In this document: piece by piece, positions 1,906 to 8,540 of the stretch
Position numbering within the stretch: the first letter of the stretch is position 1
Layout: every line of letters begins with the position of its first letter
NCBI GenBank assembly: GCA_002010305.1
Contig: MTND01000021.1
Span: 1-35,924, forward strand
Length of the DNA stretch: 35,924 bases
Origin: Archaeoglobi archaeon JdFR-42
GTDB taxonomy: Archaea > Halobacteriota > Archaeoglobi > Archaeoglobales > JdFR-42
Reading direction: 5' to 3'
Position numbers and translations under genes: made by a program
The notes under the pieces: generated by a model
Told to the model about the DNA's origin: nothing
Database searches by the model: none
Seen by the model: only the letters and a program-made list of their open reading frames with translations

Positions 1906-2235
1906 CTATAATGGTTTGAATTTGTAGCCAAATAGCTCTTTTCCATTCACTTCTCTAATTTTTGAATATACAGCCTTTACTCTCATGCCTATATTGAGGT
2001 TATCACTTCTTGTTATCTGACCTGTTACTCTCACTCCATCAAATTCTGCTATTCCTATTGGTAGTGGTTTCTCTTCGAAACCCTCTGGTAATGCATATAG
2101 AAGGGTGTATGTAAGAAGAGTGCCCTCATCTGATATCTCAACTCTCTTTATATTTCTATCATTGCATGATGGGCAAACTGAATGTTTTGGATACATCAAA
2201 ATACCACAGCTTTCACACTTAAATGCTCTGATCAT
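1906..2235 (-). CDS. DUF35 OB-fold / zinc-ribbon acyl-CoA-associated protein
   Basis: A 109-residue protein with an N-terminal rubredoxin-like zinc ribbon (CESCGILMYPKHSVCPSC, two CxxC pairs) followed by an OB-fold domain (GTLLTYTLLYALPEGFEEKPLPIGIAEF). This is the DUF35 (ChsH2-type) architecture. In archaea DUF35 partners thiolases and can channel acyl-CoA between thiolase and HMG-CoA synthase; in bacterial steroid degradation it partners Ltp2-type aldolases. It is the last gene of the mcm operon, 7 bases after the thiolase stop. I choose ATG 2235, with GAGGT about 8 bases upstream, over the longer TTG start at 2256, which would overlap the thiolase. It probably forms a complex with the thiolase-like protein upstream. 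Confidence 0.88.
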   Translation of the reverse strand: MIRAFKCESCGILMYPKHSVCPSCNDRNIKRVEISDEGTLLTYTLLYALPEGFEEKPLPIGIAEFDGVRVTGQITRSDNLNIGMRVKAVYSKIREVNGKELFGYKFKPL

Positions 2236-2242
2236 GATAGAT

Positions 2243-3388
2243 CTACCTCTCCACAATAAACACTATACTGTTGTTTCCAAATCCAGCAAAATTACAGCTT
2301 AAACCCACTTCTGCCCCATCAACCTGCCTTTTTCCGGCTTCTCCTCTTAACTGCCAAGTCAGCTCAACGAGTTGAGCAACTCCAGTTGCAGATACAGGAT
2401 GACCTCTGGCCTTTAAGCCTCCCGAAGGGCTTATGGGTAGATCGCCATCGATTTCTGTAACACCTTCTTGGACTGCTCTCCATCCCTCTCCTTTTTTGAA
2501 AAATCCAATATCTTCACTTTGAATTATCTCAAGAACTGTAAAAGCATCATGTAGTTCAGCCACGTCTATATCTCCTCTATCTTTTCTGGCCATCTTAAAA
2601 GCCTGCTCAGCTGCAATTTTGAGACCCTCAACAGTGGTCGGATCAGGCCTCTCATGGATTGCATGGGTATCAGTGGCCTGACCAAACCCTGAAATATAGA
2701 CGGGGTCTTCAACTTTTTTTATTAGATCTTTTCCGACAAGTACAAGTCCAGCGGCCCCATCACTTATCGGACATATATCATACAACCGCAGTGGATCTGC
2801 AATAATAGGGGATTGTAAAGCTTTTTCAAGACTTATGACTTTCTGAAAGTGAGCATATGGATTGTTAGCTCCATTTTTATGATTTTTCACACCAATCATG
2901 GCAAAACACTCATAGGGAGCTCCGTATTTATGCATGTACAGTCTAGCTCCAAATCCGGCAAAAGTTGTCAACGTAACTCCGTAAGGATATTCAGCTTCAG
3001 GATGTGTTAGGGAGGCTATTATGCTGGTGGCCTTTGATCCAGGAATTCCTGTCATTTTTTCGACTCCTACAACCAAGACTGATTTATACAATCCAGATAG
3101 AATACCCGCCAGACCAACCTTTACAGCTGATGCACCACTGGCTGATGTATTTTCTACTTTTTCTGCATGACAGGGAATGAGATTTAGGTCAGCAGCAAGT
3201 CCATTGGCTATTCCTGAAATGCCGGTAAACTCTCCAGAAGCAAAATTTCCAACCACTATGGCATCAACTCTATCCATTTCAGCATCATCCATTGCATTTA
3301 GAGCAGCTTCTGTAGCCAATTCATAAATCCCTTCTTCCCTTTTTCCAAAACGGGTCATTCCACATCCAGCAATGGCCACATTCCTCAT
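2243..3388 (-). CDS. Thiolase-superfamily protein (acetyl-CoA acetyltransferase-like) with Ser for the catalytic Cys
   Basis: A 381-residue SCP2/archaeal-type thiolase fold covering the whole family length. The GHPVSATG motif (His330), AELHDAF (His280) and the C-terminal SCNFAGFGN loop (Cys365) are present. The nucleophile region, normally A-C-A-S-G, reads T-S-A-S-G here: codon TCA puts Ser82 where the acyl-accepting cysteine belongs. The usual reaction (acetyl-CoA condensation or beta-ketoacyl-CoA cleavage) therefore may not occur by the standard covalent route. With DUF35 directly downstream, an aldolase-like (Ltp2-type) or purely structural role is possible. The gene overlaps meaB by 4 bases (ATGA), so the two are translationally coupled and likely act on the same acyl-CoA pool as the mutase. 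Confidence 0.85.
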   Translation of the reverse strand: MRNVAIAGCGMTRFGKREEGIYELATEAALNAMDDAEMDRVDAIVVGNFASGEFTGISGIANGLAADLNLIPCHAEKVENTSASGASAVKVGLAGILSGLYKSVLVVGVEKMTGIPGSKATSIIASLTHPEAEYPYGVTLTTFAGFGARLYMHKYGAPYECFAMIGVKNHKNGANNPYAHFQKVISLEKALQSPIIADPLRLYDICPISDGAAGLVLVGKDLIKKVEDPVYISGFGQATDTHAIHERPDPTTVEGLKIAAEQAFKMARKDRGDIDVAELHDAFTVLEIIQSEDIGFFKKGEGWRAVQEGVTEIDGDLPISPSGGLKARGHPVSATGVAQLVELTWQLRGEAGKRQVDGAEVGLSCNFAGFGNNSIVFIVER

Positions 3389-4305
3389 AGACCCTCCTCC
3401 TTTTCAATCAATTCTGCGGCTGTGAAAGGGTCAAGCTCTTTATCTAGAACCTGTTCGAAAATATCGCTATATCTGGCGTTGCTGAATTTCTCATAAAATC
3501 GCATTTTCAATTTCTCAACCAGAATTTCCACAACTTCACTTTTAACTGCTTCAAGTCTTCCTTTCCTTAAATTACTGCTATCCTCTAAATGCTTCTTGTG
3601 AGCAAAAATAGCGTCAACCAGTTTTTCTACACCTTCCCCTGATGTAGCAATTGTCATAACTATTTCAGGAATCCAACCATCCCTTTCTTTTATAGCCAGA
3701 GAGAGCTGACTTTTTGTTCTTGCTGCATTTTCCAGATCAGCTTTATTTATCACATATACATCCCCAATTTCCAGCAATCCCGCCTTTATCATCTGAATTT
3801 CATCACCTGACTCGGGCATAAGAACAATTACCTTTGTATCTGCTACATTCAACACATCCAGATCCACCTGTCCAGCCCCAATAGTTTCTATCACAATAAC
3901 ATCTTTACCTGCAGCATCCAGCACTCTTATGATGTTCTTGGTAGTTCTTCCTACTGTTCCAGCAGATGATGAAACGCTTCTAATAAAGACCTCAGGATCA
4001 CATGCCAGTTCCTGCATGCGTATTCTATCCCCCAGAATAGCTCCTCCGGTGAAAGGGCTGGATGGATCTACTGCCACAACTCCTACAGATATCTCCCTTT
4101 TTCGCAGTTCTTTTACTATTCTCGCTACCAATGTACTCTTTCCAACCCCCGGAGACCCTGTAATCCCTACCACATGAGCATTTCCCGTATACTTGTATAA
4201 TTCCCTTAGTGCTTCTCTTCCTGTCTCAGTATCATACTCAACCTCTGTTATCAGCTTTGAAAGTGTTCGTTTATTTCCACTCCTGATTCTTTCCACCAGA
4301 TCCAT
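3385..4305 (-). CDS. meaB: Methylmalonyl-CoA mutase-associated GTPase MeaB/ArgK
   Basis: A 306-residue G3E-family P-loop GTPase. Walker A GSPGVGKST is at residues 50-58. DPSSPFTGGAILGDRIRM (about 80-97) and ETIGAGQVDLD are the MeaB switch signatures, and NKAD gives guanine specificity. MeaB proteins dimerise, bind B12-dependent mutases, gate adenosylcobalamin delivery and protect the enzyme from inactivation. The gene lies 5 bases after the B12-binding subunit and overlaps the thiolase start, so it is in the middle of a tight operon. A lysine/arginine transport kinase function, the old ArgK label, is not supported by this context. Confidence 0.95.
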   Translation of the reverse strand: MDLVERIRSGNKRTLSKLITEVEYDTETGREALRELYKYTGNAHVVGITGSPGVGKSTLVARIVKELRKREISVGVVAVDPSSPFTGGAILGDRIRMQELACDPEVFIRSVSSSAGTVGRTTKNIIRVLDAAGKDVIVIETIGAGQVDLDVLNVADTKVIVLMPESGDEIQMIKAGLLEIGDVYVINKADLENAARTKSQLSLAIKERDGWIPEIVMTIATSGEGVEKLVDAIFAHKKHLEDSSNLRKGRLEAVKSEVVEILVEKLKMRFYEKFSNARYSDIFEQVLDKELDPFTAAELIEKEEGL

Positions 4306-4310
4306 TTAAA

Positions 4311-4706
4311 TCACGTAATTGACTTTATGAATTCAACTATCTCATTCACAGAACTTCCAGGACCGAATATTGCTTTTACTCCCCTTCTTTTCAGCTCTTC
4401 TACATCATCTGGAGGTATGATTCCTCCTACGATCACAGGTATATCACCAATCCCAGATTCATTGAGTAACTCAAGAATTCGTGGTATGATACTCATATGG
4501 GCTCCAGACAATATGCTCAACCCGATAACATCAACATCTTCCTGGAGAGCTGTTTCAACTATTTGTTCAGGGCTTTGTCGTATTCCTGTATAAATTACTT
4601 CCATACCCGCATCCCTGCACGCTCTTGCGAGGACTTTTGCTCCTCTGTCATGCCCATCCAGGCCTGGCTTCGCAATCAACACACGTATGTTCTTACCTTT
4701 CTTCAT
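4311..4706 (-). CDS. mcmA2: Methylmalonyl-CoA mutase small (B12-binding) subunit
   Basis: A 131-residue cobalamin-binding domain. It shows the base-off/His-on signature DxHxxG (Asp17, His19, Gly22 in LDGHDRGAK), the SxL motif (GLSILSGAH) and the glycine-rich VGGIIPP loop. His19 would be the lower ligand of cobalt in adenosylcobalamin. As usual in archaea, the B12 domain is a separate polypeptide from the catalytic barrel, encoded just upstream with a 3-base gap. The two assemble into the active mutase, interconverting (R)-methylmalonyl-CoA and succinyl-CoA in the cytoplasm. Confidence 0.96.
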
Positions 4707-4709
4707 AAC

Positions 4710-6386
4710 TTACACCACCGTAAGTTCTCTGTATTCCCCAAATACATCCCTCAACACATCACAGATCTCACCTATGGTGGCATACTCTCTGACTGCTTCA
4801 ATTAAATATGGAATCAGGTTCTCTTCACTTCCCGCTGCATCTTTTAATCTCTCCAAAGCATCTTTTACTTTCCCTGCATCTCTTCTGGATCTTATTTCAT
4901 TCAGCCTTTCAATCTGTTTTTTCTCTATTTCCGGATCCACTTTCAGAATCTCTACTTCCACTGGTTCTTCCACTTTAAATCGATTTACACCCACTATGAT
5001 ACGTTTTTGTTCTTCAATCTCCATTTGATATCTGTAAGCGGCATCAGCAATCTCCTGCTGTACATACCCTTTTTCAATAGCCTTCATCATGCCTCCCATC
5101 TTATCAATCTTTTCTATGTATTTAAGGGCCTCTTCTTCAATTTTGCTAGTGAGATTTTCCACATAATAAGAACCTGCAAGAGGATCGATGGTTTCACCAA
5201 CATTGCTTTCATAGGCCAGAATTTGCTGAGTTCTTAATGCTACTCTCACTGCTTTTTCACTGGGCAATGCAAGAGCTTCATCCATTGAGTTGGTATGGAG
5301 AGACTGGGTTCCCCCAAGCACCGCTGCAAGAGCTTGCAGGGTAACTCTCACTATATTATTTTCAGGTTGTTGAGCAGTAAGAGTTGATCCGGCAGTCTGA
5401 GTATGAAACCTCAACCTCATGGACTCAGGTCTTTTAGCATCGAATCTTTCTTTCATTATTCTTGCCCATAACCTTCTGGCAGCTCTGAATTTTGCTATTT
5501 CTTCAAAGAAATCATTATGACAGGCAAAGAAAAAGGATAAACGCCTTGCAAAGGCATCTACATCCATCCCTCGTTCCAGACAGGCTTCTACATATGCAAT
5601 GCCATTAGCCAGTGTAAAGGCAACTTCCTGAATAGCGTTACAGCCTGCTTCTCTCATATGATATCCGCTGATACTGATGGAATTCCATCTAGGAAGGTGG
5701 TGAGAGCAATATTCTATCGCATCAACCACCAGTCTCATAGATGGCTTAAGAGGGAATATGTAGGTTCCTCGAGCGACATACTCTTTTAATATATCATTCT
5801 GGATGGTTCCTGACAGCTGTTCTTTCTTTACCCCTTGTTTCTCCCCAAGTACAATATACATGGATAGCAGGATAGAAGCAGTCGCATTGATGGTCATGGA
5901 AGTTGAGACTTTATCCAAAGGTATCTGGTCAAACAATATTTCCATATCTCTTAGAGAATCTATTGCCACTCCCACTCTTCCAACTTCCCCAAGGGACATT
6001 GAATGATCAGAGTCATATCCCATCTGCGTGGGAAGATCAAAGGCAATACTCAAGCCTGTTTGACCTTGTTCCAACAGGTACCTGTATCTTTTGTTGGTTT
6101 CCTCAGCCGTCCCAAATCCTGAATACTGCCTCATAGTCCATAATCTTCCCCGATACATAGTTGGCTGAACACCTCTGGTGAAGGGAAACTCTCCAGGAAA
6201 TCCTAAATCCTGAAGATAACTCATGTTTTGGATATCGATGGGTGTATAGATTCTCTTAATCTCTATGCCGGAAGTGGTCTCAAACCTGTCCTTTCTTTCC
6301 GGATATTTCTCAATAAGAGAGGTGACTTTACTCTCCCACTCTTTTTTTCTGCTCTCTATCTCTTTCAGGTCTTTTTCTATAAACAT
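4710..6386 (-). CDS. mcmA1: Methylmalonyl-CoA mutase large (catalytic) subunit
   Basis: A 558-residue TIM-barrel subunit, the usual length for archaeal split mutases. The substrate pocket is of the methylmalonyl type: Tyr88 in RQYSGFG, Arg206 in VARGTYIFP and His243 in SGYHMREAG correspond to Tyr89, Arg207 and His244 of the P. shermanii enzyme. Isobutyryl-CoA mutases carry Phe and Gln at the first two sites. I start at ATG 6386, preceded by GGTGGTATT; a TTG at 6401 would add five residues with no ribosome-binding site. An A/T-rich TATA-like stretch (AAAAATAAAAGTATAA, about 6404-6420) lies just upstream. It is the first gene of a five-gene operon with mcmA2, meaB, a thiolase-like gene and DUF35. 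No epimerase or propionyl-CoA carboxylase gene is in the window. Confidence 0.96.
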
Positions 6387-6480
6387 AATACCACCGTCCA
6401 AATTATACTTTTATTTTTACGCTACATCCCAAATACAGTATTATGATTCGTTTCGCGTACATACTTACATAAAGTTTTTG

Positions 6481-7047
6481 TTACATTCGCATCCTCGGTA
6501 CCATGAAAGGAGTTTTCTTTTTATATTCCAGATAATGTTCCCCAAACAAATGTTCCATAATTTTTTCTTCTGCCTTAGAGAGTATGATCACATATATATG
6601 GACAAGAACAATAAATTCTAGTACGAGTCCACGTGGAAGGGCTAGAATCAGGGAATAACTGGCTAAAAGCCATCCAAAATACATGGGATGTCTTGTTCTT
6701 GCATATATTCCTGAAACCATCAATACTTTTTTAGATCCGAGCCCATAAAACTCTCGAAGTATTCCCTTCTTCATCACATCCAGAATGGCCCTATTGGATA
6801 TATAAAGCCCGATTAAAGCTGGTATGGATATCAAAGAGCTTTTCATCTGAGGAAAGAGAAGGAGAGTCTCATCAGCAGTTTTAAATAGATACATAAACAG
6901 GAAGATTAACAAGATTCCAGAAACTGTTGATCTAATTATCAAATTTTTAAAGTTATCTCTGGAAACGGGTTTCAGGAAAGTGTAAAGATGGAAAAAGCTG
7001 AATACTTCAAAAATTACAGCTAACACAACATAATGATCCAGTGCCAT
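6481..7047 (-). CDS. Membrane methyltransferase of the isoprenylcysteine methyltransferase (ICMT/PEMT-like) family
   Basis: A 188-residue protein with about five hydrophobic segments. The C-terminal half carries the family signature: RTRHPMYFGWLLASYSLIL, the S-adenosylmethionine-binding RHP/MY motif, followed by EEKIMEHLFGEHYLEYKKKTPFMVPRM, the E..L...FG..Y..Y....P ending. Such enzymes methylate hydrophobic or lipid-linked substrates at the membrane face. The substrate here is unknown. It lies between the mcm operon and an NCS1 permease on the same strand but is separated from both by short gaps, so it may be its own unit. Confidence 0.82.
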   Translation of the reverse strand: MALDHYVVLAVIFEVFSFFHLYTFLKPVSRDNFKNLIIRSTVSGILLIFLFMYLFKTADETLLLFPQMKSSLISIPALIGLYISNRAILDVMKKGILREFYGLGSKKVLMVSGIYARTRHPMYFGWLLASYSLILALPRGLVLEFIVLVHIYVIILSKAEEKIMEHLFGEHYLEYKKKTPFMVPRMRM

Positions 7048-7082: not shown

Positions 7083-8540
7083 TTATTGGTTGGCCTCGTC
7101 GTACTGGGCCTGTGTTACCACATATCCAGATCTGGGTTCTAGCCAGACCTTGAATAGAATGGTGTACACAACCAAGGCCACAATTATTCCGATGAACCAT
7201 CTCCAGTTGACCATCTGCGGAAGTAGAGCCACTGCAATTCCTATTATCAAAGCCACTATCCCTGCTGGATTCACTCCGCCATAGAATCTGTAAATTCCAT
7301 CTGACTTGTAAAGGTCGTCAAGTCTGAAGAACTGTCTTCTGCATATCCAGTAGTCTGCAATCATAACTCCTGCAATTGGGCCGAGGAATGCAGAATAGGT
7401 TCCCAGCCAAGTGAAAATGTAGGCACCATATGTCTCCAGAAGTCTCCAAGGCTGGATAGCGATTCCTATAATACCCGTCAGCAAAGCTCCCCTCTGGAAG
7501 TCGATATACTTGGGCGCAACATTAGCAAAGTCGTTTGCAGGTGCAACTACGTTTGCAGTAACGTTTGTTGTTGTGGTAGCAAGAACTATGAAGATTAACG
7601 CCACAATCTCTGCTAGAACATTGCCCGTTCTGAGAATCAAATCAATGGGATCCCATACTGCCTCTCCATAGATCAGCACAGAAGCCGATGTTGTAGCAAC
7701 ACCTAGGAAAGCAAAAGCGGTCATGGTTACCGGTAATCCAATAGATTGTCCCACTACCTGAACTCTCTGATTCTTGGCGAACCTTGTTAGATCCGGCATG
7801 TTAAGGGCTAGAGTGGACCAATATGCAACCATTCCAACCAAGAAAGCGGGCCACAATCCCCAGAAGTCAGCCACAGTAGTCTCCTGAGCAAGAATTGGTC
7901 CCCATCCTCCAGCTTCACCTACAGCCCATGCGAGTAGACCGACACCAATCAAAATCAGAACTGGCGAAGCAGTATCGTTCATTATTTTGATAGCTCTGGA
8001 TCCTTTCCATGGTGGTGCAGCCCAAGAAACCCATATGTTAATAATCCAGAATATGACGAAAGATATCCATATGTGGCCTGGAACAACTTTCCATCCTTCT
8101 GAAAGAACTCCCAGAATTCCGTCAATTGCTGATCCACCTATCCAAGTCTGAATACCGAACCATCCACAAGCTACCACTGCCCTCATAATCGCCGGTATAT
8201 TTGCACCATAAACTCCAAAACTGGAACGCAGAATAACCGGGAATGGAATTCCATATCTGGCTCCCGGAAACGAATTCAGGACCATCGGTATCAAAACAAT
8301 GATATTACCTAAGGCAATGGTTCCTATGGCGACTCTCCATGAGAAACCAGCGGCGATAAAACTGCTACCCAGCAACCAGGTTGGGACACATATACTCATT
8401 CCAACCCAGATTGCAATGTATTCATAGTATCCCCAGTTTCTGAGTTTAACCGGTGTGGGAGCAAGATCTCGGTTGGAAAGTTTTGGGTCAGTTGGCTCTT
8501 CAGTCAGCTCAAAATACCCGTCTACTTCTCTCACTTCCAT
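7083..8540 (-). CDS. NCS1-family nucleobase/hydantoin:cation symporter (Mhp1-like)
   Basis: A 485-residue LeuT-fold transporter with about 12 membrane segments. GWFGIQTWIGG (residues 126-136) contains Trp127 and Gln131, equivalent to the substrate-stacking Trp and binding Gln of Mhp1. GMVAYWSTLALNMPDLTRFAKNQ and TTTNVTANVVAPANDFANVAP match the conserved helices 6 and 8 around the substrate and Na+ sites. Substrates in the family are hydantoins, allantoin, uracil or cytosine; the sequence alone does not decide. The start is ATG 8540 with GGAGGAATAGCGAT upstream and a TATA-like ATTATATATA near 8587-8597. A HyuA-type enzyme gene at the left window edge makes a hydantoin plausible but not proven. 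Confidence 0.9.
   Translation of the reverse strand: MEVREVDGYFELTEEPTDPKLSNRDLAPTPVKLRNWGYYEYIAIWVGMSICVPTWLLGSSFIAAGFSWRVAIGTIALGNIIVLIPMVLNSFPGARYGIPFPVILRSSFGVYGANIPAIMRAVVACGWFGIQTWIGGSAIDGILGVLSEGWKVVPGHIWISFVIFWIINIWVSWAAPPWKGSRAIKIMNDTASPVLILIGVGLLAWAVGEAGGWGPILAQETTVADFWGLWPAFLVGMVAYWSTLALNMPDLTRFAKNQRVQVVGQSIGLPVTMTAFAFLGVATTSASVLIYGEAVWDPIDLILRTGNVLAEIVALIFIVLATTTTNVTANVVAPANDFANVAPKYIDFQRGALLTGIIGIAIQPWRLLETYGAYIFTWLGTYSAFLGPIAGVMIADYWICRRQFFRLDDLYKSDGIYRFYGGVNPAGIVALIIGIAVALLPQMVNWRWFIGIIVALVVYTILFKVWLEPRSGYVVTQAQYDEANQ

Follow-up and report, generated by a model that had tools for sequence, protein, structure and literature searches.

The window, by which we mean the whole stretch of 35,924 nucleotides of Archaeoglobi archaeon JdFR-42 DNA that was analyzed, contains a single packed minus-strand run of genes in which a methylmalonyl-CoA mutase is followed by a thiolase-fold protein. 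The run consists of the mutase large subunit McmN (4710..6401; PF01642, TIGR00641, with alignments to 4r3u and 2xij), the small, B12-binding subunit McmC (4311..4706; PF02310, TIGR00640), the GTPase MeaB (3385..4305; PF03308, TIGR00750), the thiolase-fold protein itself (2243..3388; Pfam Thiolase_N and Thiolase_C_1) and a DUF35 protein (1906..2235). The thiolase's start lies inside the MeaB stop codon (ATGA), behind a GGAGG, and seven bases separate its stop from the start of the DUF35 gene downstream on the same strand. The likely start of the DUF35 gene is the ATG at 2235, with GAGGT ahead of it (the listed open reading frame begins at TTG 2256), and its product is a stand-alone protein of about 110 residues, a ChsH2-type OB-fold beta subunit with a Cys4 zinc ribbon (PF01796, E 2.3e-12; PF12172; BbsA model). 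The original prediction, which gave no strand, had named both the DUF35 partner and the mutase operon, and both are borne out. Upstream of the mutase run, across gaps of about 80-95 bases and on the same strand, are a phospholipid/isoprenylcysteine-type (PEMT-like) methyltransferase (6481..7047, minus strand; PF04191) and an NCS1 nucleobase:cation symporter (7083..8540, minus strand; PF02133, TIGR00800). The mutase large subunit has MCM-type residues at the positions that differ in 2-hydroxyisobutyryl-CoA mutase (HCM: RQI, STDFD, MAQKEYI), and an HCM-type mutase in this operon is ruled out on these active-site residues.

The thiolase gene is an intact reading frame of 381 codons for amino acids, with an ATG start, a TAG stop and no internal stops. 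Residues 80-85 read N-T-S-A-S-G, placing Ser82 (codon TCA, 3143..3145, minus strand) in the alignment column of the thiolase nucleophile Cys, as had been read directly from the sequence before. Because TCA differs from the Cys codons TGT and TGC at two positions, one base error cannot account for the serine, and a single-base error in a Cys codon is ruled out. A decaying gene, already rejected in the original prediction, is likewise ruled out by the intact frame, by conservation across the clade and by the operon coupling. The other motifs are an LHDAF with His280 (2549..2551, minus strand), an RGHPV with His330 (2399..2401, minus strand) and an LSCNF with Cys365. The second thiolase Cys, that of the HDCF motif, is missing, and the protein has HDAF instead; this loss does not tell whether thiolase activity is gone, since the benzoylsuccinyl-CoA thiolase BbsB also has HDAF and keeps its nucleophile Cys. 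An AlphaFold model of the protein, made with eight sequences in its alignment, has a mean pLDDT of 57.8, too low to be of use.

We aligned 105 sequences, in which the nucleophile column holds 62 Ser, 14 Cys, 25 Asp, 3 Pro and 1 Asn. The 62 Ser-type rows comprise haloarchaea, Thermoplasmata, the JdFR-42 protein and Sulfolobus ST0096 (4YZO), which alone represents the Thermoproteota. Across these rows S82, H280 and H330 are invariant (62/62), and both histidines are also present in all 25 Asp-type sequences. The earlier statement that His280, His330 and Cys365 are all kept therefore holds for the two histidines; for Cys365 it is misleading, as this residue is present here and is Cys in 43/62 Ser-type rows, with mostly L, V or I in the remainder. 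Cys365 as an alternative nucleophile is ruled out as a clade feature on the same count. In a tree built without columns 80-85, the Ser, Pro and Asn rows group together with an SH-aLRT of 98, every Cys- and Asp-type row falls outside this group, and separate signature residues (L286, W303 and F370) also split the Ser-type from the other groups. The JdFR-42 thiolase branches beside the haloarchaeal copies, but in this quick tree the support for that placement reaches only 80 to 88. The best matches of a phylum-wide search, at about 52% identity, come from genomes that include named haloarchaea; the motif is Q-T-S-S-S-G in the best-matching haloarchaeal copies and N-T-S-G-S-G in those of Thermoplasmata. 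In the 60 nearest relatives, none of the best matches proved to be Ser-type, and those that were read have Cys or Asp at the site. Judged by the alignment, Ser82 is a clade signature and no oddity.

The clade contains further variation. The Asn member reads NTNASG, and the Pro members, from one family of small archaeal genomes (L087:9598-10728, L088 and L089), read NGPASG with HDAF and GHP kept, and have an adjoining DUF35 gene in L087 and L088. Because Pro and Asn variants lie inside the clade, a side-chain nucleophile at this position is not available to all its members. One haloarchaeal genome (L086:8497-11423) has two Ser-type thiolase genes in tandem. Gene neighborhoods also vary. Haloarchaeal Ser-type copies L078/L125, L085, L126 and L127, several of them on plasmids, adjoin SLC23 nucleobase transporters and, depending on the copy, amidohydrolases, urease genes or CaiB-type CoA transferases, and the NCS1 nucleobase transporter precedes the JdFR-42 operon. 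A link between Ser-type copies and nucleobase catabolism is possible; as a general role of Ser-type thiolases it is weakened by other copies that have no transporter or amidohydrolase context. The Thermoplasmata copies L105-L107 and L109 have a succinate-glutarate-type CaiB CoA transferase as a neighbor, accompanied in L105-L107 by ketoacyl-reductase-like SDR, enoyl-CoA hydratase-like and MFS transporter-like genes.

The position between MeaB and DUF35 is occupied by a thiolase elsewhere in the class. Eight genomes (L202-L209) of a sister family, probably Archaeoglobaceae by our own assignment of the name, have the gene order McmN-McmC-MeaB-adenosyltransferase-thiolase-DUF35, with the adenosyltransferase frame missing from the list of open reading frames in L202, and an acyl-CoA dehydrogenase gene then follows in six of the eight (L202-L206 and L209). 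Their thiolase is Cys-type in 8/8 (E-G-A-C-A-S-S, HDCF) and shares 36-38% identity with the Ser82 thiolase while filling the same slot, which marks this place in the operon as one for a thiolase. Unlike the JdFR-42 operon, these operons include the adenosyltransferase gene and, in 6/8, the acyl-CoA dehydrogenase gene. From gene order, a thiolase/DUF35 pair in the mutase operon is a habit of the class, and a Ser-type member fills the slot here.

Another replacement of the nucleophile appears in the same sister family, outside the mutase operon. In L010-L014 and L016-L035 (e.g. L011:1501-2652), a thiolase is encoded between HMG-CoA synthase and DUF35, as in the mevalonate complex, and all 25 sampled HMG-CoA-synthase-linked thiolases of the family have Asp for the catalytic Cys (xxDASG). 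In these proteins the HDCF Cys is replaced by Ser (24) or Val (1) and the GHP Pro by Ala (25/25), the adjacent HMG-CoA synthase keeps its Cys, and each of the 11 Asp-type genomes checked has another thiolase, either classical or Cys-type with HDCF. In JdFR-42's own family, the HMG-CoA-synthase-linked thiolase has a normal Cys. It may be that Cys chemistry no longer supplies acetoacetyl-CoA in the Asp-type complexes.

A precedent for a serine at this position comes from the literature. PHBV synthesis in Haloferax mediterranei relies on two beta-ketothiolases, PhaA (HFX_1023/1022) and BktB (HFX_6004/6003) (PMC11205408; PMC7137286; PMC9049629). As these papers describe them, each pairs a catalytic alpha subunit with an indispensable OB-fold beta subunit, and their catalytic set is given, in reviews of Hou et al. 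2013, as Ser-His-His, versus the Cys-His-Cys of bacterial enzymes (PMC11205408; PMC7137286; PMC9049629). The evidence for these enzymes comes from knockouts, hybrids and CRISPRi: knocking out both ketothiolase pairs stops PHA synthesis (PMC6631277), and CRISPRi against bktB lowers the 3HV fraction (PMC8387396). A protein encoded on H. mediterranei plasmid pHME505 (L122) falls in the Ser group with 49.5% identity to the Ser82 thiolase and has the motifs QTSSSG, LHDMF and GHP. Its neighborhood runs cdc6, SagB, a small downstream gene, thiolase, where the small gene, annotated as hypothetical, sits at the beta-subunit position. Because this order fits HFX_6001 to HFX_6004, the plasmid protein is probably BktB-alpha.

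The Ser82 thiolase shares the features of these enzymes: Ser82, H280 and H330, which probably correspond to the Ser-His-His set of the reviews, a co-directional DUF35 gene, and a grouping apart from Cys-type proteins. We consider it probable, with moderate confidence, that the Ser82 thiolase is the catalytic alpha subunit of a two-subunit, PhaA/BktB-like Ser-His-His beta-ketothiolase with DUF35 as its obligatory partner. The original prediction's option of a serine-based acyltransferase survives in this form, as such a ketothiolase would be one; otherwise the prediction is mostly overtaken by this described enzyme type, of which it was not aware. We infer the following reaction for the JdFR-42 pair. 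Ser82, activated by His330 or His280, would be acylated by one acyl-CoA, the remaining His would aid in forming and protonating the acetyl-CoA enolate, and CoA would bind where the thiolase and DUF35 subunits meet. The enzyme would then reversibly interconvert a short 3-ketoacyl-CoA, such as 3-ketovaleryl-CoA or 2-methylacetoacetyl-CoA, with acetyl-CoA and propionyl-CoA, and this reaction would sit beside the methylmalonyl-CoA/succinyl-CoA mutase step. The simplest role in the operon would be to split or build a short 3-ketoacyl-CoA that gives propionyl-CoA.

Several observations weigh on either side of a ketothiolase function. We count the tight MeaB-thiolase-DUF35 coupling and the MCM-type mutase in its favor, and ketoacyl-reductase-like genes adjoin Ser-type copies in Thermoplasmata and Natrinema, as expected if these copies are ketothiolases. 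Counted against it are the Pro and Asn members of the clade, the identity of only about 50% to the probable BktB-alpha, the branch support of 80 to 88, and the loss of activity in the C88S mutant of PhlC, a Cys-type relative (PMC6392133). Because that substitution is fatal in a Cys-type enzyme, the surroundings of the serine in a Ser-type enzyme must have evolved along with it, and W303, L286 and F370 are candidates for such residues.

The rest of the genome keeps a different reading of the operon alive. The JdFR-42 assembly (99.6% complete, 42 contigs) has two McrA genes, a second methylmalonyl-CoA mutase and two epimerase-like genes just below the family cut-off, and we found in it no PHA synthase and no protein with a carboxyltransferase domain (PF01039). 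The absence of a PF01039 protein means that biotin-dependent enzymes for carboxylating propionyl-CoA or decarboxylating methylmalonyl-CoA are lacking, and with them the ordinary biotin-dependent path from propionyl-CoA to the mutase. This gap between propionyl-CoA and methylmalonyl-CoA leaves room for another role, in which the Cys-less thiolase fold might act as a decarboxylase or decarboxylative condensing enzyme that takes (methyl)malonyl-CoA from the mutase to propionyl-CoA or a ketoacyl-CoA. Its place in a mutase operon would suit this, as would a passage of PMC12329534, which cites weak decarboxylation of malonyl-CoA by the Cys-less thiolase-like TbSLP; the missing carboxyltransferase domain speaks for it too, though with the epimerase-like genes just under the cut-off. 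We nevertheless regard a decarboxylase as unlikely, because the clade offers no biochemical example of one, the H. mediterranei relatives act genetically as beta-ketothiolases, Cys-type thiolases occupy the same operon slot in Archaeoglobaceae, and an assembly in 42 contigs may simply miss a carboxylase gene. A bolder proposal sees the pair as a methylmalonyl-CoA decarboxylase that works without biotin, or as a decarboxylative ketoacyl-CoA synthase, joining the mutase to propionyl-CoA, and the archaeal Ser, Asp and Pro DUF35 thiolases as a family past Cys chemistry; it strikes us as quite improbable.

The original prediction had also offered an aldolase and a scaffold. An Ltp2/Sal-like acyl-CoA (retro-)aldolase working with DUF35 would share the fold, the partner and the missing nucleophile Cys, and some Ser-type copies do have CaiB-type CoA transferases, not beta-oxidation genes, next to them. 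However, the base of these aldolases is the Tyr of YDHF/YDCY, and the nucleophile site of CtSal is Gly (PMC12329534). The corresponding residues here are His280, which is His in 62/62 Ser-type rows, and Ser82; moreover, no MaoC-type hydratase was found among the neighbors of the Ser82 thiolase. With its defining Tyr and its hydratase partner both lacking, the Ltp2 type is not supported, and we think an aldolase of this kind a poor prospect. A scaffold without catalytic function, holding DUF35 or the mutase, would fit a wider family in which the nucleophile position varies (Ser, Asp, Pro, Asn), but S82, H280 and H330 are invariant in 62 sequences from distant archaea, and relatives in H. mediterranei are needed for PHBV monomer supply. 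We consequently hold a purely structural role to be very unlikely.

A two-subunit Ser-type beta-ketothiolase therefore remains our preferred reading. It would extend enzymes known from haloarchaeal bioplastic synthesis to the genome of a probable alkane- or fatty-acid-oxidizing member of the Archaeoglobi. The enzyme type is already known from H. mediterranei, and what is new is the placement of a Ser-type member in a mutase operon. Because JdFR-42 has no PHA synthase, the known physiological role does not transfer. The protein opens two questions to testing: whether the serine itself carries the acyl group as nucleophile, and how such enzymes serve cells that make no PHA. More generally, automatic labels of 'acetyl-CoA acetyltransferase' mask nucleophile replacements by Ser, Asp, Pro and Asn in archaeal DUF35 thiolases.

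The known systems differ in how closely they resemble the JdFR-42 pair. The Ltp2-ChsH2 and Sal-Shy steroid aldolases likewise combine a thiolase fold that has no nucleophile Cys with DUF35, but they have the Tyr of YDHF/YDCY and a hydratase partner where the Ser82 thiolase has His and no hydratase. The HMG-CoA-synthase-linked thiolase belongs to the same superfamily and also partners with DUF35; it differs by its Cys nucleophile (ACASG), its HDCF motif and its HMG-CoA synthase neighbor, whereas the gene next to the Ser82 thiolase is MeaB, and its role in JdFR-42 falls to a Cys-type copy on another contig (C15). The best match of solved structure is ST0096 of Sulfolobus tokodaii (4YZO), with 48% identity, N-T-S-G-S-G, GHP and HD, and with Leu in place of Cys365. 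The BktB and PhaA enzymes of H. mediterranei, a PHA maker, read QTSSSG, versus NTSASG in a mutase operon of a non-halophilic archaeon without PHA synthase; in both, a Ser-type subunit is followed by the gene of an OB-fold subunit, and the Ser, His and His are kept.
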